The notes beneath the pieces are model-generated. The model was not told the origin of the DNA and did not search any database. It was given only the letters and a program-made list of their open reading frames with translations. From Isoetes taiwanensis (taxonomy: Eukaryota; Streptophyta; Lycopodiopsida; Isoetales; Isoetaceae): a stretch of 64,000 nt of DNA. The position numbers and the translations under genes are program-made. Shown here one piece after another: positions 15,823-28,287 of this stretch. The stretch spans positions 3,708,829 through 3,772,828 of the forward strand of contig JAJEKV010000041.1 of NCBI GenBank assembly GCA_021234155.1, given 5' to 3'. Numbering within the stretch: the first letter of the stretch is position 1; each line of letters starts with the position of its first letter.

Positions 15823-15966
15823 ATTGGTATCAAAGTTGAGTTTCTTTCTTTGAAGCTTGTTGGCAATGGTTCCATATCTAACTCCTAGATCAATGGAATA
15901 GAATTGGACAGGGAGAACGTTTTGCTAGAAATATTTTTGGGAGATTGTTTTGCAGGAAATTCTTTT

Positions 15967-15991
15967 AAGTCGTATTTAATTAAAGTGGGAC
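15967..15991 (+). repeat. Left terminal inverted repeat of the 12.1-kb element
   Basis: The 25 bp match the reverse complement of 28,087-28,111 without mismatch. The core TTTAATTAAA is itself palindromic. Confidence 0.9.
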
Positions 15992-16859
15992 TCATTCCAT
16001 TCCCATTTTTTTTCGGAACCCGGTTAATTTACATAAAAAGTAGCACCCCGACCCGAAAACTATCCTTAATTCGAATTTTTGAATAAAACTCAAATCCAGC
16101 CAGTCTTTGCAGTTTTCCCGTGTTTCGCGAAGTCGAGAACAAAAACAATGCAACTGAAACAAAGGAAATTCATTAAAGTTTGAAACCAAAGATGTAGTTG
16201 AAAAAGAATTTTTATTAATAAATTGAACAGATACAATGTATTTTACATCGGACGCAGAGACCATGGCGGTCTTGCTGTCACTACAGTTACATCATCTTGG
16301 TAGGTGGTCCACCTTAGGGGATTAACTTGTGGCGCTTCTTCATGCCGTCTGTAAGCCTTGGGGCAACTTTGAGAGTGTGGAATGCCTCACGTGGAGGTGC
16401 CTCTCGAGCTACCGGCCGACCTGTCCACCCGACTTCTCCACTTTCCTCCTCATGACCTTTCATCGAATATGCTCCTTCCCCAACCTCCGTGGATGTTATG
16501 CAATGCTTGCAATATGCCTTGAGCTTCCTGGACTTTCTCTTTGTTCTTCGCCTGTTCTTTATTCCCAGGGTGTAGCGAGCAACCTCTGAATTCGCGAGCA
16601 ACCTTGTCCCAAAGGCCGGGCAAGAGTGTAGCGTGACCGGGATCTGTGCCAGAACGGTATTTCTTCCGCCTTGAGCGGGATCCGTGCCGCCTGGAGCGGT
16701 CTCTGTGATGCCCGGAGCGGGATGCGGCCGGTATCGGATCGTGCACGAACCACCGGAGCAAGGAGAGTATGATTAACAATTACGGTGTCATTAGTCAAAA
16801 CGTAGAAAAGAACGTTGAAATCAAATTACAACGGAGAACATTCATTCCATACAACCGCA

Positions 16860-17175
16860 TCCAATGGCGTGGGAAGTAGTGTCTTTCGACTCACGCGAGT
16901 CGAGAAAGGCCCATAAAAAATCAAAGTACAACCATTCTCATTAGAATATGGTTGCATCCAATCACACACGGAAGCATACAAATGCTTTTGTCAACGAGAC
17001 AACTAGCATGCCTTTCTCGACTCGCGAGTCGAGAAAGTCCCAGGAAACCCAATGTACAAGCATTATCATAATAGATTGTACAAGCATTTCATCAACACGA
17101 CAAGCATGCCTTTCTCGACTCGTGAGTCGAGAAAGGCATCGAAAACTCAATATACAAGTATATTCATTACAAAAT
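16860..17175. repeat. Palindrome-anchored tandem units
   Basis: Three units of about 95-130 bp, each beginning with the palindrome and continuing with diverged but alignable spacers (TACAAGCATT, CAACACGACAAGCATGCC). They lie 3' of the cargo gene. Confidence 0.75.
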
Positions 17176-17252
17176 GGTCAATACATGTGTTCACGTTCGA
17201 TTACAATATTCACACAATTTGACTATCTGAAAGCAGGGGTCACTCTTCTTGT

Positions 17253-18065
17253 TCACCAAAGTATTTGTCGTCCATAGCTTTCATGATCGGCTTGCTCTGG
17301 ATCGGGTTCCGTGAGGCTCGGATAGTTCGTAAGCACATCGACAAGAATGGCAAAGAGGATTCCGCCAAGACAGACGAGTCCCAAGGACAACCACCTATCT
17401 CGTCTCATATTCTTCAGGTCGATATGGCTTAGCAATGATTGTATTTTGCGCGTTATGATAGCACTTGTAGGCGGAGTCGTCTATGATCAGCGTGTTGTGT
17501 TTGCCATAGTCCTGGAATTGCTCATAAACACTGTCCAGCCTTTTCACCATTATAGGCTTCCCCTTTGTGATGGCTGGATCGAGGTCCTTCACATGCTCGA
17601 CCCTTTCGTTTCCCCAAACGAACTTGAACTTCAAAACTGAAATGCCGAGAACACCAAGAACATTGACAATATTTTTCTTTGCCATACAAGACCATATGCC
17701 CACTTCAATCCCGTGCGGGCACCAGTCAATAATTTCCTTAGCTCGGGGCTCGGATACACTATTTTATGCTCTGTTTTCACCGATCTGCGAGGTGTTAATC
17801 TCGGGGGCGTCTTTGTCGTGGTATCTGCAGCTAATACTCCATTGACGTCAAATATTACAAGCTTGGTGGGACCACCGGATCCCGATTGGAGTTTGGCTCA
17901 CCATATTTCCGTTAAATTCGGGATCCAAATGCGGGATCATTAACTTTTCGTGTTCTTTACCGGGCCGCGAGCGGTGTCTTGCTCGGATTTTCATTCTCAT
18001 TCTCCTCGCGACGTGAACCGTTGGAATCCATTGACAATGATCCGGACTCGTTGAGCTGGAATTCC
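17253..18065 (-). pseudogene. Cargo gene last exon: FCP1/SCP-type HAD phosphatase-like domain
   Basis: After an acceptor (TTTCAG, exon start 18,065) the minus strand encodes a charged linker and then an FCP1 homology domain: KLVIFDVNGVLA (Asp at 17,849), IIDWCPHGIEVGIWSCM, LKFKFVW, GKPIMVKRLDSVYEQF, NTLIIDDSAYKC (17,490-17,455) and IIAKPYRPEE. FCP1/SCP enzymes remove phosphate from proteins such as the RNA polymerase II tail via a DxDx(T/V) motif. Here the second Asp is Asn (DVNG), so catalysis is doubtful, as in some plant relatives of the family. Three single-base shifts break the frame (near 17,960, 17,735 and 17,415). The end is LGGILFAILVDVL plus about 25 residues. Confidence 0.72.
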
Positions 18066-18201
18066 CTGAAATGATGACATCTGTCAGAAAGGAAACGAGT
18101 TTTCTCAACTCGCGAGTCGAGAATGACAAGAAAAGGTATTGAAAGGAAACGAGTTTTCTCGACTTCGAAGTCGAAACACCGTTAGAGCAAAGTAAACTCA
18201 C

Positions 18202-19832
18202 CTCAATCTCAGGTTTTCAATAATGTTTTCGGCAGCATTCTGGTCCAATCCTTCGACATCCTCGTCTCCGTCAGGTTTGTCTCCCTCGTCCTCGTCGTCT
18301 TTACTGCTTCCATTTGTCTTCCTCCCCTTGAAATGCTCATGAAGCAGATCCAGGTATGACTGAATGGTTTCAACCATGTCCTTATTTCCAACCACGGATA
18401 TAGGTTTCATTCCAAACAGCATAGCCCCCTGAGAGAACAGGCCATTCATGTACCACTCGCGCATACAATTTGATCTTCCTCGACCAAAATGGTTATGAAG
18501 TACTTGATAACTCTTGGCGGATAGGAATTCTATGTATAGGACCTGGTCGCACCATCCTTGCTGACCTTGTCCATCGATGGAACATCCTCCATAAACCCCC
18601 CCCTTCGGGTTCCATCTGCTCTTGAGAGATCATGAACTTGTCGAGATAATGATGCTCGCTAGACCACCACTTATCCAGGTCGACCGCCGATCTTGAAATC
18701 AAAACCAAAACTATGTTGGCAAAGCTTGGTGCCTTCGGGCAAAAAGAGTCCGCACTCATGATCAAGTTCGTATATGGAGTGCATGATCTTGTTGGTGAAG
18801 TTAATATCAGCTGCCCATTGGGAGACAGCGGTTGTTTGATTGCCCTGCATGCAAAAGACAAGGAAACCGAAAGTATCCAGTCGGTCATGTCCGAACACGC
18901 CTTGTACCACTTTGCTCTATGTCAGCTTTGTCATAAAAAGGGTGGGGTCTTCGATCATATTGATGGCAAATAGTGCCGGGGTCAGTGCCGGTTCGGACCA
19001 CCAAATCCCTTGTGTCCCAAAGTAACCCGAAATGGGGGGAGCTATAAATCGCCTTAAAATGGGACCACCCGAATCCAAGCTTCCTTTTAATTGCCATAGC
19101 ACGTTTAGGGAAAGGAAGGGTTTTGACGTGCAGCTTCAGCTTGGTGTTGATGTAGGGTTGACATAGACGGTTCAATTCCTTCATGTCTTCCTCATCAAGG
19201 GCAGCCTTTTCCTTGTAATAATCAAAATCATGGTATTCATTAGATGCAACGTTCGTAACTCCCGTGATGCCTTCTTCTAACGCATACGCCGCCGCTTTTA
19301 GGGCGTGGCATAATCCTTTGCGCCCCGCAATTTAGAACTCCCGGTCTTCCTCGGCAGGATTGTTCCCTCAAGATTTTGCCTTGTAGGTCAAGCGTTTCTT
19401 TGTCCGTGAGGCCCTCGTATCCTCTTCATGAACTGCTTGTCAAACAACTTGGGGTCGGGCCTGCTTGGAAATTCTCCATTCTTTGTCCTTGACTTGCCTC
19501 TTGTCCATTGAGCCCATATGTCGGTCCATTTCTCCCGGACCGCCTCGATTGCTAAGAATGAGGTCGTATTGGTCCGAGAGAGACTCCCTACCTTTCCTTG
19601 GTGTTCTCTTCTTCTTTTCCTCTTCTTCCTCTCCCTCGTCATCTTCTGTCCCTCCAGTGAGAACATATCCGCATAGTTTCTCAAAGGTCTTCCACTTATC
19701 AGGGAGCCCCTGTTTCCTTTAGGGCCGAGGACAACCCAATGCTTTCCACTGTTGCCTAGCGTGTATGATCTGGTCAGGATAAGGGCTGCATTCAGACAAT
19801 GTACCAATGTCAGAGCATGAAAGTATCTACAA
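18202..19832 (-). pseudogene. Cargo gene middle exons, unrecognised
   Basis: Broken frames form one continuous protein: YFHALTLVHCLNAALIL (after an acceptor near 19,833), a Lys/Arg-rich segment (RERKKRKRRREHQGKV), FGHDRLDTFGFLVFCMQGN, FTNKIMHSIYELDHECG, REWYMNGLFSQGAMLFGM, and an acidic C-terminal part (DDEDEGDKPDGDEDVEG). It ends at a good donor (GAG|GTGAGT at 18,202). Frame breaks occur at about 19,400, 18,900, 18,680 and 18,490. I do not recognise the family. It lies upstream of the FCP1 domain with a 136-bp intron between, so I infer one gene. Confidence 0.5.
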
Positions 19833-19859
19833 ACACCCGGAATAAACAGTAAATAGTAG

Positions 19860-20262
19860 CCCCGGGTTTTCTCGACTCGCGAGTGAAAGTCCCTTGAATG
19901 TCTAATTTTCTTTTACTTCTGCGGGTTTCTCGACTTCGCGAGTCGAAAAGCTCTGCATCCTTTGATTTTCTGCATTACCACGCCTTTCGACTTCGGCGGT
20001 CGAAACCCCGATGATAATCGGCAAATGTTAGGATGGCAGGGCTTTCTCGACTTCAGCCGGTCGAAAGTCCCATTCAATGTCTAATTTTCTTTTATCGGCT
20101 AAGGGTTTTCTCGACTTCGCGAAGTGAGAAAAACTCCACATCCTTTGATTTTACGTGTTTACTCGGGGCTTTCGACTTCGCGAGTCGAAACCCCGATGAT
20201 ATCGGCAAATGTTAGGATGGCGGGGCTTTCTCGACTTCGCGAGTGAAAATGGAAAGATTCGT
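19860..20262. repeat. Higher-order palindrome array (A-B-C x2) inside a predicted intron
   Basis: Seven palindrome starts about 57-65 bp apart (19,866, 19,925, 19,984, 20,041, 20,106, 20,166, 20,226). Spacers repeat in order: A (AATGTCTAATTTTCTTTTA), B (GCATCCTTTGATTTT), C (CCCCGATGATAATCGGCAAA), then A', B', C'. The repeat unit is therefore a 180-bp triplet. The array fills the intron between a donor at 20,270/20,269 and an acceptor near 19,833. Confidence 0.85.
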
Positions 20263-20269
20263 TATTTAC

Positions 20270-21545
20270 CTTCACGTGGCGGCACTTCGCTGCTATTGTG
20301 TTCTCGCGTTGGCTAATCTTGGCGGTTCGGTTCTTGGCGTCTCGCCGAAAGAACTCTGCACTCGCTTTGGCATATCTATCCTTGATCCTTTGCGGCACCT
20401 CCTTCTCCGATCTGCAATACTTGAGCGCCCTAACCGAATCGCGGCCGGCCTACAACCCAGAACCGGACGTCTTTTCCCTTCAGATCTTCCTCAGACTTCC
20501 AGCTGAACAACTCACCTGTCGATCTGCTAAAAGGTATGACATCCGCAGGCATTGGATCTGCAACGGGATGTCGCACCATCAGGTTCAGAATCTCCAGCAT
20601 GTGTGCTGGATTAAATTCCCTGTGGTTGAACAAGACGGCATCTCCCGTGCAAACCTTCAGCCGTCTAATGTCCAGCAGCAGCTTGTGTGATATTCCCAAC
20701 GGATAATACTGAGCTAGACGCTCCATTTTCTGTGCCCCTCTCTGAGAAATCCTGATCTGATCATCTGGATCGAGGTTTGGGGAGTCGACCATATCTTCGT
20801 CTCCTTCGTCATCTGACTCCTCCCGTGTAGTGTCATCATCCCCATCTTTGTTTTTTGGTGGACTTTTTTGTGTATGAACCACAACATTCCCCACTGCAGA
20901 GTGTTGTAGAGTCTTCAGCACAGTAGAAGTGAAGCTCCCCGTATTGAACAGTTTTTCCCTGACTCTGGAAATCTCCATACCAAGCTCCCTGGATGTTAGG
21001 GTTCCGGCCTCCTTCATCCCTTCCAGATCCTTCCACCCAAGGTTCTGACAATTTAAAAGGCGCCCGGCCTTTTTTGAAAAGCCCTTAGCCTTGCTCATGG
21101 AAGAGTGAGAATAATTTGAAACGCTAATTTTTGGTGCGATAGAACTTACTCCTCTGGCGCAGTCCTCGACATGTAGTGTTAAATGCTTCGAATGGCAAGC
21201 GAGGCGGAGAGCACAACACCGATTTTCTTGTACTTGTCTCCCCGAGCTCTTCTTGTCCCTTTGGTGTAGAAACAGATCTTTCTCCTTCCCACTTGTCGAT
21301 ACCTCGACATACCACCAAGAATCTGCCATTTGTTTCAAGAAAGCTCGTCTCCGGTCCCTCGATGACCGAAGAATGGAGTTCGGCCCGCTGATCACCGGTG
21401 AGTCCGAGGTGAATCTTTTGCAAGAAGAACGGATGGATCGGTTAGGGTATTCCGACAAAAGAAAAACCTCGAGCTCACCCGGGTGTTTGTCTTCTTCTTC
21501 TTGCTGCCCATTTGGCGAAGCATCCCCTCCGGCCTAAAGCTTCTT
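20270..21545 (-). pseudogene. Cargo gene large exon, unrecognised acidic protein
   Basis: Two frames join here. One (21,423-21,124) reads LTGDQRAELHSSVIEGPE, FLETNGRFLVVCRGIDKWEG and STPKGQEELGE. The other (to 20,430) reads SKKAGRLLNCQNLGWKDLEG, SRELGMEISRVREKLFNTG, an acidic stretch (REESDDEGDEDMVDSPN), QRGAQKMERLAQYYPLG and CTGDAVLFNHREFNPAHM. A further shift leads to VPQRIKDRYAKASAEFFRR and a donor CATGTGAAG|GTAAAT at 20,270. I know no family for it. Position and strand suggest it is an upstream part of the FCP1-domain gene. Confidence 0.5.
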
Positions 21546-22468
21546 GGGCGGAGTCATTTCTATATGCCCTCTCATCCTCTTGGGACGACTCGTAAAATTA
21601 AGTTTCCTCCGCGTTGTGAGTTTTAGGACCGCATGTAAAAAAGATCGGCGTGTTCTTTAATTTGAAGTTAAGGACATGCAATCATTTATGAAAAAAAAGC
21701 GGGCTAAAGGTACAAAGACGGATTAAGCCTTTAGCCCCAAACACTATTTCAAATTGAATCACATCAAGGGACTAAGTGAGTGGAGCGTAGTTTATCTTCC
21801 CCTGCGGCATTGGGGAACTTCGAGGTCGGAGGGATCATCGACTGTTAGCGACTTCGGAATGGCGCCCAGCGACCTTAAGCGGTAAAATAACGGCGCCTTG
21901 CATATGTGTTTTTCCCCGACCGCGTCCTATTGCAAGCAGTTGAATTGATCGATGAGCACGGAGCTAAGGTAGGAAGCGGAGAGGAGCTGCCAGACACCGG
22001 AACTCTACACTGCGGCGCCATGGAAAGGGGATACGCGAGAATCGCAGTGTCTAATGGTAATAGATCGCGAATACACTCTTGAAGAGACCGGCTGAAAAAA
22101 GCAAAGACTACGGGTGAGGCTGCGGGATCCGTGATCTGATGGCCCAAGGAATTACTAGCGTGAAGAGGTGAGTTTGAGAGATGCCTATGTTATTTAAACA
22201 GTAGAACATGCCGTATGTGTTTAAATAATGGAACTGCTGATAAGCTCGACGGATTCAGTGTTTCCTTGTCCAACATTTCTCAGCTTCGAGAGATGATTTA
22301 CTCTCTAGGTTGAGAGATGCTCGGCAAGGAAACATTGGATCGGGGGTAAAGAACAGTTCCGTTTTAGGTCTGTTTTTCCATGGACTGTTTACTTGGAATG
22401 TTGTACATAGATCAGGCTAGGACTAAGGCCCAGGAGATGCGGTTCAAATGCATCCTCTTGTAGTTAGT

Positions 22469-23512
22469 CGGAGGGGCCTCCACCTGTCCAACCACTCCTC
22501 TTAGCAATATTCGAGGAAGATGGTTCAAGGAGAGTGGCTCGAGATAGGCTAGAGGCACTTGGGACTAAAAACAGGAGAATAGAAAGTGCAGTACTTGTAG
22601 AGAATGCAAGCCTTGGCTTCCTCTGTGGTTTCCCTGTGGTTAGTTGTAGAGGCCTCCACCCAGTCCGAGCCCCTCCCCTTCGCACTATTCGACGAAGATG
22701 GTTCGAAGGAGAGTGACTCTGACTGGGTCGAGGCCACTTGCTACCGCATGACGTGAGAATTGGTCGGGCTAAAGGGATTCTCGACTTGCGAAGTCGAGAA
22801 TGCTTGGCTTCTGTCTACATTCTGGACTTCGCAAGTCGAAATGCCTTAACCATCCGTAACTCCGGTTAGTACACATGGAGTGCCGGTTGGGTAAGGCATT
22901 CCCACTTCAGCGAGCCGAGAATGCATCTGAAGAAGCTCGTGGAATGCATGCATTCTCGCGACCACATAATGGAGAATTGGGTTGCTAAGAGTTGGCCTGC
23001 GACGGTAAAAAACACTTCCCTTCAAAATGTCCGAGGAAGATAGAAGGAGAGTGTTTAAGATCGCCGCAGGCCAGCTCTAGAGTGCACTAGAGTCAAGGTT
23101 TTCGACTCACGAAATGAGAAAGCAGCCAACAACTCGTTGTTAAATGTAGGAGGCCTCCACCCAATCGAGCCCATCCCCTTTGCAATATCTCGAAGATGGT
23201 TCAAGGAGACGGTCTTTGATTGGGTAGAGGCCAATGCGACCACACACGAGAAATTGGGTTGCTAAGAGTTGGCTATGATACAAAACCACTTCCCTTCGCA
23301 ATGTCCGAGGGAAGATAGAAGGAGAGTGGTTGAGACCGCCTGCGAACCAGCTCGAGTGCACTAGAGCTGCGTTTTCGACTGAAGTCGAAAAGCGCCAGCA
23401 CCTCGGTGGTTGAGTCGCCGAGGCCTCCACCCGGTCGGGACCAGGTCCTCTTCGCCATATATATTCGGCGAGCATGGTTGAAGGAGAGTGGCTCGGGCGG
23501 GTGGAGGCACCT
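22469..23512. repeat. Four foldback repeat units
   Basis: Four units of about 85-95 bp (about 22,469-22,556; 22,649-22,735; 23,150-23,235; 23,417-23,512) start with GAGGCCTCCACCC or a close variant, contain CCCTTCGCnATATTCG and GAAGATGGTTCAAGGAGAGTG, and end with the complement (GGGTnGAGGCC). Each can fold into a long stem. Between them are two copies of a second unit (GAATTGGGTTGCTAAGAGTTGGC, about 22,970 and 23,250). Confidence 0.8.
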
Positions 23513-24134
23513 ACGACTGCACAAAGAGCCATTGGCGGTATCACATTCTCGACTCACGAGTCGAGGAAGGCCGCAGCAGGTTCTAAAGAATGTGAAGACA
23601 TTGGGTAGGCTGTGCAATCACGGAATCGAGAATCGAGAATCCCTCAACACATAGCGGTCCGAGTGTACACTCCCTCTTCTCGCCTCATGAAGTCGAAGTT
23701 CTCGACTTCGGAAATGGTAGAAGAAGGCCCGTACTTCCTTTTTGTTGGCAAGTCGAAGTATTCTCAACTCGCCACTCCCTTCATGTCTCTGCAGTTGGAT
23801 TTCTTGTGAGTTAGAAATGGAGATTCTGTGAAGCAATTCCTATTCTGAATTCTTGCTGGGAGAAAGACATTCCTAGTTATTTTCTGTTAATGCTCTGCAA
23901 TATCTTACTTCCTAACACCAGTCTCTGATGATTTCTCTCTCGGTTGCTTGCTACTATAACCACTATTCTCACTTGTGCATGTACAATGTATTCAATTCAA
24001 CCACAAGCAAGAAAAAGATAACAAAAAACAGAAAACAATACAAAGATTATTAAGATTAATGAGAAAACAGAGAAAAGTGGAGAACAGTACAGAAAAATGA
24101 GATTAAAAAAGGGTATGATATTACAAAAACATAC

Positions 24135-24428
24135 CTGGAAGATTTGCTGGATGAGGAGGAGGCTTCCGACTTCGATTCCATGTGGGTATAGTCGTTGACA
24201 AAGCGTGAATAAGGATTTGTCTGGGTCAGAAATTGTATCGAGGGGATTAATAAGAGCCTCTAACAACGTAATATAAGAAAAAAATGCACTAAAAGACTTA
24301 CGAGAAAACTAAAAAGCAAAGACTAAAAGGGCCTCACTTTCTTTCTCGAAGCAGCCCGCTCGAACAATGAACCCGCTAGCGAGAACTTCAAGGAAGCGTC
24401 CCCGATCACGACCAAGCTGCTTTGTCAT
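24135..24428 (-). CDS. Cargo gene possible first two exons
   Basis: ATG at 24,428 opens a 91-nt exon (MTKQLGRDRGRFLEVLASG, ending FEK; donor GTGAGG at 24,337). A second exon of 125 nt (24,259-24,135) encodes NPLDTISDPDKSLFTLCQR and YPHGIEVGSLLLIQQIFQ, ending CCAG|GTATGT. The phases agree (91 + 125 = 216 nt, 72 codons). I do not recognise the protein. It could be the start of the FCP1-domain gene, joined by a long intron, or a separate small gene. Confidence 0.4.
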
Positions 24429-24719
24429 AAGATGGCTACCGAATCGCTTCGGTTTGATCGATCGCCTGATCGGTAAAGCGGGCGCCTAAGGAAACAGGGA
24501 GCTCGAAGAGTGATCAGAGAAAACAGGGGAGGAAGAATGGTCGGGGGGAGAGGAAGAGGGTGCAGTTAATTCTGGCTGCACCCTCGAACCTCGTAAAAGT
24601 GCAATAATATACTTCTGTCACGTGTGGGCCATGCCCTCCATGACGTGGCGTCTGGGATTCTTGACGTGGCCCGCGGTTTCACCTCCTCTGAAGAGGCGCC
24701 ACGTGGCCATGCCAAGATA

Positions 24720-24990
24720 TGAAAGGGTTGGTTATATGTTTATATATGTTGTCTTATGTATTTAATAAGGTTTCAATGGTTGAATAGTATCAATGGTATA
24801 TATGGTTACAATGTTCACATATGGTTTAGAATGAGTGTGGTTGTATGCTTTAATATGGTTATATGATTTTAGTTAATATGGTTGTATGATTTAATATGGT
24901 TATATTTAATATGTTTGTATGGTTTTATATGGTTCATATGGTCATATTTGTGGTGTTTGGGGCTATATGGTTTTAATGTGAGCTTTTCAT
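24720..24990. repeat. TATGGTT-rich low-complexity spacer
   Basis: Degenerate repeats of ATATGGTT/TTTAATATGG fill the space between the divergent cargo and transposase genes. It probably holds the two promoters, but no specific site can be named. Confidence 0.6.
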
Positions 24991-25007
24991 TCAGGGGAGC
25001 ATGTGAG

Positions 25008-27915
25008 ATGAGTAAAATGGAGCCGGGGAAGTCCAAAGGAGGCCATTGCCCTAGGCTCCAATGGAGGAGGATGGGTTGCCTTTTGTTGCACCCTTGCAAC
25101 TGCATCGGTATTTGCGAGAGGGCATAATAACTGCAGTTGATCCATTTGATAGTGTGAATGATGAGAGGCTGGGAGATGAACATCTTGGAGTTGGCATTGT
25201 GAAGCTTCTTATCGAAGTTGATACTATCATGTCCCAGGGAAGCTCTAGTGATTGCATTGTGTGCTCAGGGCTGCCGGAGTCCCAAGCTCCGATTTGAGAT
25301 GGCCAATTAGATTTATTACACACAAGAATGGTGATACTCTAGAATGCCCCATCTTGAACTACACACCCCAAGGCCCACCCAAGGCCATGTGGAAGATTTG
25401 GTGGTCGATGAGCATCCTTTGATCACAAGGAAGAGACGCTATGTCTTTCATAAAAGGCAGCCAAAGGTGCCCAAGAGGCCTAGAAGTGACAAATATTTAG
25501 AAAGGATGGAAAGTATGGCACCAACCAAAGAAAACCCGGAGGCAATTAGGGGACAAGAGTGTTGCAACCTAGATTGCACAAAGTGCATTACAATGTGGAT
25601 GACCTCGTGGCGATAAGGTCCCAATACATTGGACAGACTTCAAAAAGATAGGATTAATTTCATTTACTCCTTGTGTAGGAATTCCAGCTATGATGAAAAC
25701 ACAGACTACTATATATCAATTGAGGGGATGAAGGTATGTATGAGAGCATTGAGATGGATTCTTGGGGTGAGCAAGTCTTCATTTTACGATATCTTGGGAG
25801 CAGGTTAGAAAAGGGCACACTTTGTTCCAACATGGTAATGCACTCACTTTGAAACCTAGAGCAAATACTCTAAAGGCCATTGCAGTCTTGAGAGCTTTGT
25901 GAGATACATGTCTCAATCTATGCCCCACAAGTCGAAGAAGTGAACGAGCACGGTGCAGCGAGTGGTGCAAAAGAGTGTTGCCACAACACTATATCCAAAA
26001 GGAGTGCCTTAAGGAGGTCAACTCCATCCTAGAAACTACTTGGAGGTAGGCCTCTTTCTCAATCACATTTCAGCAAGTTATGGAGCACTCACTTCTGGAC
26101 GTGAGTGTCCTACAACACATGCCATTCTCAAAGTGCAACACTTGCATTCAACTCAAGGATACACTTGCATCAACTGCAATAGAGAAAGAAAGAATGGCAA
26201 TTAGGGAGCAATTTGCGTGATCACCAAAGGGACCAAATATCATGTAGGCAGTTGTATTGGCGGAGAGAACATTTTCTCGAGATGCAAAAGGACAAATTTT
26301 TGTGTATAATTCATGATAAGATGGACCAACACAAGACTTTCTTGCCAAAGCTAGATCCTTTACCCAAGCGTTGTCAAAACGCTTTTTTAGATGAAAGTAA
26401 GTCCAAGGGTGTATTAACACATGGTCATGGAACCGGAACATATGGTCATTTTGTGCTTGATCTATGGAGAGATGATCCAAACTTCCATGTGAGCTCTATT
26501 TTCAAGTGCTTGAGAACACTAGAGAAAGGATCGATAGAAGGGAGGAGGTATTCCCCTTCAAAGACCCATTTTGAGGCTTTGATGGATGATCAACCGCTTT
26601 GTTACCAAAGGCGAGATAAAAAGCTCACATCCAAGGTGCCTAGTGAATCAAGGAGGACTTGGGATGATTTCCCCTTACTAGAGAAATCCTTTGCTGAGGA
26701 GCTATGTGTTCAGTTGGACAACCTGTTGGAAAGAAAACAAGAATAGATGGATGTTTGGGGCAATGTCATACTTGGACGGCGGTGGGAGTATTCAAAGTTG
26801 TGAAAGTGGGATTCATGATGGTTGGGCATACGCATGATGATATTGATGGATTCTTTGGAACTTTCTCCACCAAGCTCAAGAGAGAAAACGTGACCACTCT
26901 CCCCCAACTAATGGATGTGTTTGAGAGCTGCATTGACCCCAACCCAATGGCTTTCTTGATGGATGAGGTTGCAGATTGGAAATCATTTGTAGAAGGATAC
27001 TTGCTAGATGGCAAGGACCAGTTAATGAGACACACAAAGCCACTTCAATTCAAGTTTTGGGTTAGGGATGGAATACCAATCATGCAATATAAGTGGAGAC
27101 CAGGTGACAAGTTGTGGATGCCCGTACAAGGTATCGAGTTGTGGCAAAGGGGTGCTTCTTTGGTGAAGTTCTCATTCCTAAAGGGCAGCCAAAACCACTA
27201 CCTCCCTTCAAGACAGGTCAAAGACTCTAGCCAACTAGTGAAGGGCATCAAGGATTACATAACGACCGGGATGATGTTCAAATGGAAAGCACACCTCCAC
27301 TCTTAAGAAAAATCAAATGGACTCCCTAATCAAGTACTGGGAGAAAGTTGTAACATGCTTAGAAACTGAACAGCCATGTGGGAGGGAGCTAAGAGACGGG
27401 TTCTTGCCAGAGTCAAGATGGGAGGGTTCTCAAGGTGCAAGCACGTCTAAGAATGCTCACTTGGGTCCCAAGTGGTTTGTGGGAAGTAAGGCCTCAAAGC
27501 CGAAGTGGTTTGATCTTCCTGAGTGGGATCCCTTTGAGGACATCAAGGAAGGATACTTTGTGCTAGTAAGGCCCGATGATGAGGACCGGCCCAATATGGT
27601 TAGGGGTGGCACTCTCGATGTGACCACCACTATGCCCGATGGAGAGGAGTTAGCGTCCCCGGATTCCAAATTCAATATTGGGAGCCCATTGGGAGGCACA
27701 AGAAGGGCAACTTGAAGGAGCAATACACCGATCACCGGGAGAAGAAGTGGAGGCCAAATTATGCTGACCCTCAAAGGAGGGAATTGGTGGAGTGTGTGGT
27801 ATGGTCATATCCAAGTTCTCACATTGCAAAAGACAACACACACAAGATCCCAAGAAAGGAGATGGACAAGGCCATGAGCAACCTCCATGCTATATCATTG
27901 TATGAGGGTGCATAA
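25008..27915 (+). pseudogene. Transposase-like protein (DUF7869-type), frameshifted
   Basis: Collinear frames give one long protein: DPFDSVNDERLGDEHLGVG, a Cys-rich ECCNLDCTKC, INFIYSLCRNSSYDEN, VCMRALRWILGVSKSSFYDI, DKMDQHKTFLPKLDP (26,314), HGHGTGTYGHFVLDLW, VGFMMVGHTHDDIDGFFG (26,803-26,856), KFWVRDGIPIMQYKWRP, and a basic C-terminus. The DxMDQxKT...VGHTHxDxDxxF order is what I know from uncharacterised plant and animal proteins labelled DUF7869. Acidic residues in those motifs suggest an RNase H-like, DDE-type nuclease (inference). At least five frameshifts or stops (about 25,655, 25,806, 26,219, 26,740, 27,690) break it. The start is unknown; ATG at 25,008 is possible. Confidence 0.7.
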
Positions 27916-28046
27916 TATTGAGAAGTTTGAAAACTTTCTCAACTAGTGGTTTGTAAAATTTATGAGGAAAACAAGTAACCCAATTCTATGTGTGTCATGT
28001 GTAATTCTATTCAAGCAATCAATTCAGAAATTTCTTTTATGGTGTG

Positions 28047-28073
28047 TGAGTCCCATTTTCAGTCTGAGTCCCA
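28047..28073 (-). repeat. Subterminal TGGGACTCA repeats, right end
   Basis: Two TGAGTCCCA copies (28,047-28,055 and 28,065-28,073) lie 14-40 bp inside the right TIR. On the left the same nonamer in mirrored orientation overlaps the TIR end (15,986-15,994). Subterminal repeats of this kind usually bind the transposase. Confidence 0.65.
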
Positions 28074-28086
28074 AAATTCAAGATTT

Positions 28087-28111
28087 GTCCCACTTTAATT
28101 AAATACGACTT
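28087..28111 (-). repeat. Right terminal inverted repeat of the 12.1-kb element
   Basis: Exact reverse complement of 15,967-15,991, followed by TTTT as at the left outer edge. Confidence 0.9.
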
Positions 28112-28287
28112 TTTTGTTTGAAGTTGAAATTACCGCTGGACATGACTTTGCATCAAAGCTCTGTGCAAATTTAACAAGTGGCTCTGGATGATCGATAGAC
28201 ATTCCTCGCTGGCTTACTATCAGCTTGATCTTGTTAAGCATTTAAAGTAACGCCTGCAGACATAGATACGTAATCTGCAACCCATGG

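Follow-up and report, generated by a model that had tools for sequence, protein, structure and literature searches.

The 64,000-nucleotide stretch of Isoetes taiwanensis DNA analysed here (G000:C1047:3708829-3772828, referred to as the window) carries at positions 15967-28111 a class II transposon, as is evident from facing pairs of terminal inverted repeats (TIRs), target site duplications (TSDs) of fixed length and empty sites in the same genome. On balance, the element is best explained as a decayed copy, though of full length, from an autonomous DNA transposon family of about 12 kb, similar to Sola1 elements, with a DUF7869 protein as candidate transposase and an FCP1-like accessory protein that is probably targeted to palindromes of its own family. 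As an observation, the unit described in the initial annotation is confirmed. Its interpretation stands for the mobile unit, the high copy number, the co-occurrence of the two genes and the candidate transposase; it is incomplete or unsupported as regards the novelty of the gene pair and the second gene as host-interaction cargo.

Ends and flanks of the element

The ends of the window copy are as follows.

15963-15966: left flank TTTT, putative 4-bp TSD
15967-15991, + strand: left 25-bp TIR
28087-28111, - strand: right 25-bp TIR, complementary to the left end
28112-28115: right flank TTTT

The two TIRs are complementary at 25 of 25 positions (100%), and the motif TGGGACTCA at 15986-15994 is mirrored twice near the other end by its reverse complement, TGAGTCCCA (28047-28055 and 28065-28073). 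The perfect TIRs, the mirrored subterminal motifs and the TTTT on both flanks, by which the unit had been delimited, were all found again. The TTTT pair may be a true duplication or may have arisen by chance in T-rich DNA. The left flank of the window copy belongs to one repeat, continued in two other copies (L080, L081), and the right flank to a different repeat, continued in four (L076-L079). These two repeats (15863-15966 and 28112-28215) are joined exactly at the element, a junction that may stem from rearrangement, nested insertion or the assembly. No clean empty site was found for the window copy, its flanks being two different repeats.

Copies, target site duplications and empty sites

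The assembly (1,658,258,908 bases in 1110 contigs) contains 1888 forward and 1931 reverse matches to the 25-bp TIR with up to three mismatches, and none to a reversed control. A single mobile unit with further copies sharing its ends is borne out by this search; the finding of the TIRs only once, which had been named as evidence to the contrary, did not occur. Pairing was based on 100 listed places out of 3819, all exact. Among these were 34 neighbouring facing pairs, with spans of 3-5 kb (n = 10), 5-11 kb (n = 3), 11-15.5 kb (n = 13) and more than 15.5 kb (n = 8), and two outward pairs of less than 30 kb. The longest spans may contain other insertions, or be bounded by unrelated ends.

Of the 23 separate TIR pairs examined, 20 have identical 4-bp flanks, and no one target sequence is preferred. 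Since two pairs on contig C128 have one flank in common, the 20 matches represent 19 independent sites. The exceptions are a pair on C16 with a 5-bp match (GTACA), and pairs on C6 (TTAA/GTAA) and C10 with no match; the C10 pair, whose two ends are of one and the same type, is probably not one element. The two C128 pairs (91535-106412 and 130552-141846), which have identical flanks and lie 39 kb apart, reflect either a segmental duplication or an assembly duplicate.

Copy C907 is inserted in the reverse-transcriptase sequence of a long interspersed nuclear element (LINE). Joining its flanks gives a sequence that aligns, through the joint, with every one of the 40 genome places listed (86-93% identity). 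These are paralogous empty sites, and the proposed search for empty sites thus succeeded for this copy. Most of the length of the window copy can be aligned with each of five other long copies (C15, C16, C22, C35 and C118), in blocks that are 77-95% identical, and C907, the sixth, has both genes between the same ends. Three short copies of 4 kb (C1, C4 and C40) have only 195-211 bp at the left end and 65 bp at the right end in common with the window copy. An end pair of 5.1 kb (C124:445389-450497) with a matching TSD carries both genes only 2.4 kb apart, and is an internally deleted derivative.

Two divergent genes and their association

The interior of the window copy contains the following features.

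17243-21329, - strand: gene 2 (accessory), several exons, frame-shifted here; probable start MADSWWYVEV at 21329
17401-17949, - strand: FCP1/NIF-like HAD domain of gene 2; motif FDVNGVL read from 17855
18201-19525, - strand: middle part of gene 2, for which no matching family was found
20270-20670, - strand: possible ParB-like region of gene 2; position by tblastn, approximate; frame-shifted here, VVDGQHSVRAAQ in copy C907
25008-27915, + strand: DUF7869 gene, putative transposase, frame-shifted here; uninterrupted (830 amino acids) in copy C907
26315-26338, + strand: DKMDQHKT, candidate first acidic residue(s); column nearly invariant in alignment A1
26824-26847, + strand: GHTHDDID, candidate third acidic residue(s); invariant in alignment A1

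The genes are divergent, as had been annotated, though each is interrupted by frame shifts in the window copy. By tblastn, all gene parts were detected in seven of seven full-length copies, the window copy among them, whereas the three short copies contained no part of either gene; two genes never found together, the other outcome that had been held to speak against the unit, is thus the reverse of what was seen. Pairing the best 150 of 4616 first-look candidates for the FCP exon with the best 150 of 8947 for the transposase gave 35 pairs within 40 kb, against 1.09 expected. All 35 have the same order, 34 are on opposite strands, and 18 are spaced by 8.9-10.1 kb.

Pairwise ratios of non-synonymous to synonymous substitution rates (dN/dS) were 0.11-0.45 for the transposase (6 pairs) and, within gene 2, 0.34-0.61 for the N-terminal part (3 pairs), 0.16-0.23 for the middle part (2 pairs) and 0.20-0.62 for the NIF domain (10 pairs), all calculated from few copies in which open frames were chosen and blocks below 60% identity dropped, with no significance test. 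Judged from these sequence comparisons, the ratios show purifying selection on both genes.

The DUF7869 protein

The DUF7869 domain was matched in the window at 26698-27306 on the + strand (8.2e-24), with a second, weak match at 26183-26746 (0.037, under the curated cut-off). The stop-free protein of copy C907, encoded at L043:2813-5302, matched the family (PF25273) at 8.4e-44, and is 27-28% identical to the DUF7869 proteins of other repeats in the genome. In alignment A1 (10 sequences, one genome), D594 (QLDN) and both D633 and D636 (GHTHDxID) are invariant, while D460 and D463 (DxMDQ) are nearly so. This pattern of acidic residues is as would be expected of a DDD/E transposase, and makes the Asp residues of (I/V)(H/I)DxMDQ, LDN and GHTHDxID candidates for the catalytic positions. 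The protein would be a transposase of the DDD/E type, cutting at the TIRs and moving the element by a cut-and-paste mechanism. The element yielded no further candidate for a transposase, and the earlier proposal that DUF7869 is a candidate transposase is supported.

A viral origin was rejected: A1 gave 55 pattern matches in viral_contigs, none of which was confirmed as a relative. Behind the DUF7869 domain, in loci L043 and L021, is a stretch (YFVLVRPDDEDCPIWLGVAL / GMLVAVLADDDEEGRMFWLAKVL) that resembles, by eye only, a beta domain of the chromatin-reader type.

Sister loci with a ParB-like region and a methyltransferase

DUF7869 loci with a ParB-like and N6_N4 methyltransferase gene on the opposite strand (L083, L097, L098 and the pairs described below) are frequent in the plant genome. 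On C1034, the open reading frames beside a DUF7869 gene of another type encode a ParB-like region and, matched at 5.4e-15, an N6_N4_Mtase domain, and the same combination is present at L097 and L098 (N6_N4_Mtase at 1.1e-17 and 9.7e-19). The best family matches of the ParB-like regions at loci of this type were DUF6551 (0.0023), phrog_723 ParB (0.018) and TIGR03764 ParB (0.039). Pairing the best 150 of 1444 methyltransferase candidates with the best 150 of 9911 DUF7869 first-look candidates gave 25 pairs within 40 kb, against 1.09 expected; 23 of them are on opposite strands and in the same order, and 17 are spaced by 4.9-6.2 kb. The plant may carry N6-methyladenine (6mA) or N4-methylcytosine (4mC) at repeats of the methyltransferase type.

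The FCP1-like accessory gene

Gene 2, the start and end of which were placed from conserved frames, encodes in spliced form on the opposite strand an N-terminal part, the possible ParB-like region, the middle part and the FCP1/NIF-like domain, in that order. Its first description as a multi-exon gene ending in an FCP1-type HAD domain holds, but was incomplete in that the possible ParB-like region lies further upstream in the gene. The NIF/FCP1 family (PF03031) was matched above the cut-off in the window at 17395-17763 on the - strand (1.3e-5), in C907 (2.9e-10) and in C1107 (1.3e-10). The motif DVNGV(L) is present in the window and three other copies, and the IWS and DDS motifs are kept. The catalytic signature DxDx(T/V) is altered by loss of its second Asp (D-to-N), and phosphatase activity is therefore not to be assumed; from the motif, phospho-binding or altered chemistry would be as likely as ordinary phosphatase activity. 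Of the earlier view of a phosphatase carried as cargo, the FCP1-like domain survives; enzymatic activity is not to be taken for granted, and a role in host interaction is unproven. In a tree of 13 rows, the DxNGV/YMNGV domains stand apart from three canonical DLDxTL domains (93/97), a separation to be read with caution given the long branches.

A second repeat type with a NIF/FCP1-like domain (DLNGVL/DINGVL) was seen at L048 (C1037), L049 (C1040) and L099 (C1051). One strand carries a RING-like, coiled-coil gene with NIF as its last part, and the opposite strand a transposase-like gene of a different kind (WSDGCS, HGKGEHDG). The copy at L046:325-1899 has an internal deletion through which the middle part of gene 2 runs directly, and in frame, into the FCP1-like domain, giving an open frame of 525 amino acids.

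The possible ParB-like region was picked out in copy C907, where residues 266-355 matched phrog_1033, 'ParB-like partition protein' (E 0.036). BLASTP similarity between the FCP1-type and methyltransferase-type genes is weak. Alignment of gene 2 with the ParB-like region of L097 scored 48 (shuffle mean 29.2, SD 4.7), a score reached by 5 of 2000 shuffles, and it includes a colinear stretch with xVxGxHSxxA. With L083, the score was reached by 36 of 2000 shuffles, and the best alignment involves a different stretch. From these comparisons, gene 2 probably has a ParB-like region.

No methyltransferase was found in gene 2 by tblastn with the L097 methyltransferase pieces in the ten copies searched. 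A degenerate methyltransferase in the middle part, which by eye had seemed possible to align, was rejected on sequence: in each of six comparisons the score lay at the shuffle mean, being equalled by 207 to 832 of 1000 shuffles, and hhalign gave 0.1%.

Arrays of family-specific palindromes

Palindromes with the core TTTCTCGACTCGCGAGTCGAGAAA form four clusters in the element; they lie in introns, in the stretch that separates the two genes and past the NIF exon.

16886-17130: cluster 1; exact TCGACT-N-AGTCGA at 16886-16903, 17017-17032 and 17115-17130
18105-18174: cluster 2, in an intron of gene 2; one change at 18105-18120, exact at 18159-18174
19872-20247: cluster 3, also within a gene 2 intron; two exact sites (19930-19946, 20172-20188) and four with 1-2 changes
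22781-23721: cluster 4, between the genes; exact at 22781-22797, 23375-23388 and 23549-23564, others with 1-2 changes

Exact TCGACT-N(0-8)-AGTCGA occurs nine times in the element and not once in the rest of the window (51,855 bases). Sites with up to two changes number 18 in the element, compared to 3.35 in shuffled sequences (maximum 6). Six other long copies contain 5, 5, 6, 11, 11 and 14 exact palindromes, and the three short copies contain 2, 3 and 5. The cluster is 0.8-1.3 kb from the left end in the short copies and 0.9-1.2 kb in the window copy, and blastn found no similarity between them in this region. Genome-wide, the exact 18-mer palindrome occurs 3851 times (control 0). Among 50 listed places, 28 are within 12.5 kb on the inner side of an exact TIR, and none only on the outer side.

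The sister loci have palindromes of their own. L097 and L098 carry a different one, AAGTGTATTCCGGAATACACTT, with nine and eight occurrences (up to three changes), most of them spaced by 41-42 bp. The genome contains 1810 occurrences of it (control 0), and six of the seven methyltransferase matches listed on contigs C1-C97 have one within 2 kb, the exception being C29. L083 has a third type, GGTATNAATTNATACC, in five exact copies and five with 1-2 changes. Perfect 14-bp palindromes number 8 at L083 (0.51 expected), 6 at L097 (0.28) and 6 at L098 (0.27). The element has 3 (0.74 expected), the two window flanks have 1 and 6 (0.97 and 2.19), and three stretches from a different kind of transposon have 2, 0 and 0 (0.5 each). 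At C18:59571-60593, AAGTGTATTCCGGAATACACTT and CTCGACTCGCGAGTCGAG occur within about 1 kb of each other, with no exact TIR among those listed on C18.

The palindromes might instead be internal binding sites of the transposase itself, with gene 2 unrelated to them. Short copies without either gene keep both the ends and the palindromes, as expected if they are mobilised in trans; however, the sites are spread over about 7 kb of introns and intergenic DNA and are not confined to the neighbourhood of the ends, and the ParB/methyltransferase loci have other palindromes, with a spacing of about 41 bp, in the introns of that gene. Transposase sites are a less probable explanation of the arrays.

A possible role in self-recognition

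Under the favoured explanation, gene 2 would encode an accessory protein of the Sola1-type kind, a ParB-like DNA-binding protein in which the FCP1/NIF-like HAD domain stands where its relatives have a DNA methyltransferase. The protein would bind the palindromes of its own family, those of the short copies included; that it does so through the ParB-like region we put at slightly under an even chance. Binding would bring the C-terminal module to the palindromes. In the relatives this module would methylate the element, and here it would dephosphorylate a phosphorylated partner, or hold it (given the D-to-N change), plausibly within the transcription or chromatin machinery. The C-terminal domain of RNA polymerase II is the classical FCP/SCP substrate.

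By extension, each DUF7869 family might have its own palindrome array, a cognate ParB-like protein and an exchangeable effector (methyltransferase or FCP1-like), a self-recognition resembling that of ParB and parS, which would control the chromatin or transcription of the element and its short, non-autonomous relatives. This wider scheme is put forward tentatively.

Several results weigh against these readings. The DUF7869 protein has no match to a solved structure (the best, at 0.073, is an antibody chain; none was obtained with a profile), and single-sequence models reached a mean predicted local distance difference test (pLDDT) of 36 for the transposase fragment of the window and a pLDDT of 37 for the second window frame. 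Both genes were read from sequence, with no transcript seen. The phrog_1033 match is the best ParB family match of gene 2, no curated cut-off was reached, and hhalign gave 0.3% probability between gene 2 and the ParB regions of the methyltransferase type, so that in this comparison the shuffle test is the one favourable result. Of the 50 listed palindromes, 22 have no exact TIR nearby, which would be explicable by inexact ends or by other families. The methyltransferase-type neighbours are known as loci (gene pairs) and not as bounded elements. Lastly, the best 150 of 3263 general NIF matches and the best 150 of 9911 DUF7869 matches formed only 2 pairs, with 1.09 expected. The FCP1-like domain was accordingly rejected as a general partner of DUF7869, and the partnership is peculiar to the family of the window element. 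The DDE fold, the ParB fold and membership of Sola1 are unproven.

Passive capture of the FCP1-like gene from the host, as pack-type cargo that does nothing for the element, is quite improbable: FCP1/NIF genes are indeed host genes too, and several NIF types are repeated in the genome, but the gene keeps its position and orientation in 34 of 35 pairs, is present in 7 of 7 full copies, has dN/dS below 1 in 10 of 10 NIF pairs (blocks chosen as alignable, no significance test), and occupies the position of the methyltransferase gene in the sister loci.

Comparison with known systems

TSDs of Sola elements are reportedly 4 bp, as Bao et al. are said to have described in 2009; the same length was found in the family of the window element. 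The closest described element is Sola1-1_Ec32 of Ectocarpus (21.5 kb), which, according to the accessible part of its description, has a ParB-like and N4mC/6mA methyltransferase gene opposite the transposase (PMC12477816). Similar ParB-like/methyltransferase genes are cited there for green and red algae, with the proposal that the proteins bind and mark their own element (PMC12477816). The window element resembles Sola1-1_Ec32 as a large DNA transposon with a second gene on the opposite strand, the accessory protein of the Ectocarpus element being described as ParB-like (PMC12477816); the sister DUF7869 loci share with it the DNA-methyltransferase domain too. The window element differs from that published account in having an FCP1/NIF-like domain and no detectable methyltransferase, and in its length of 12 kb, and palindromes are not mentioned in the part of the description available (PMC12477816).

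It had been claimed that no described transposon superfamily has this pair of genes. The FCP1-like version of the accessory gene was indeed not found in the open-access literature searched; the opposite-strand ParB/methyltransferase layout has, as far as the accessible text goes, been published for Sola1-1_Ec32 (PMC12477816). The gene layout is therefore already known, and the FCP1-like version is the part that would be new. Together, the two versions point to a modular accessory gene in Sola1-like elements. For the ParB-like accessory proteins, whose binding and marking of their own element has so far only been proposed (PMC12477816), the palindrome arrays would provide the target that was lacking, one open to direct testing.

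DUF7869 could also be a new transposase superfamily that has the ParB-methyltransferase gene in common with Sola1 through movement of accessory genes between superfamilies. Such movement is described in fungi for TET/JBP accessory genes, in the available part of that report (PMC12730594), and the likeness to Sola1 is one of organisation. The 4-bp TSD, the giant size and the opposite-strand ParB and methyltransferase gene nevertheless all agree with Sola1, and a separate superfamily seems rather doubtful. On the favoured, Sola1-like reading, the Pfam family DUF7869 (PF25273), for which Pfam gives no function and of which no mention by that name was found in the open-access literature searched, would gain one as a transposase; here the domain sits within a unit bounded by TIRs and TSDs.

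The FCP/SCP (NIF) phosphatases of PF03031 share with gene 2 the match to a HAD fold family and the IWS and DDS motifs. They differ in having DxDx(T/V) where gene 2 has DVNGV, and gene 2 has a long, unrelated N-terminal part fused to the domain, inside a transposon. The ParB-parS partition systems of bacteria and phages are similar in that a possible ParB-like region and family-specific palindromic sites occur in one element; the difference is that the window element has no partition function, no ParA was seen in it, and sequence similarity is weak; binding of the sites is putative. Transposons carrying TET/JBP genes and KolobokP transposons are likewise eukaryotic DNA transposons with an enzyme gene beside the transposase, although, from what is accessible of their descriptions, the enzymes and the superfamilies are others (PMC12730594, PMC9587614). 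To the effectors carried by eukaryotic transposons, the family of the window element adds an FCP1-like module.

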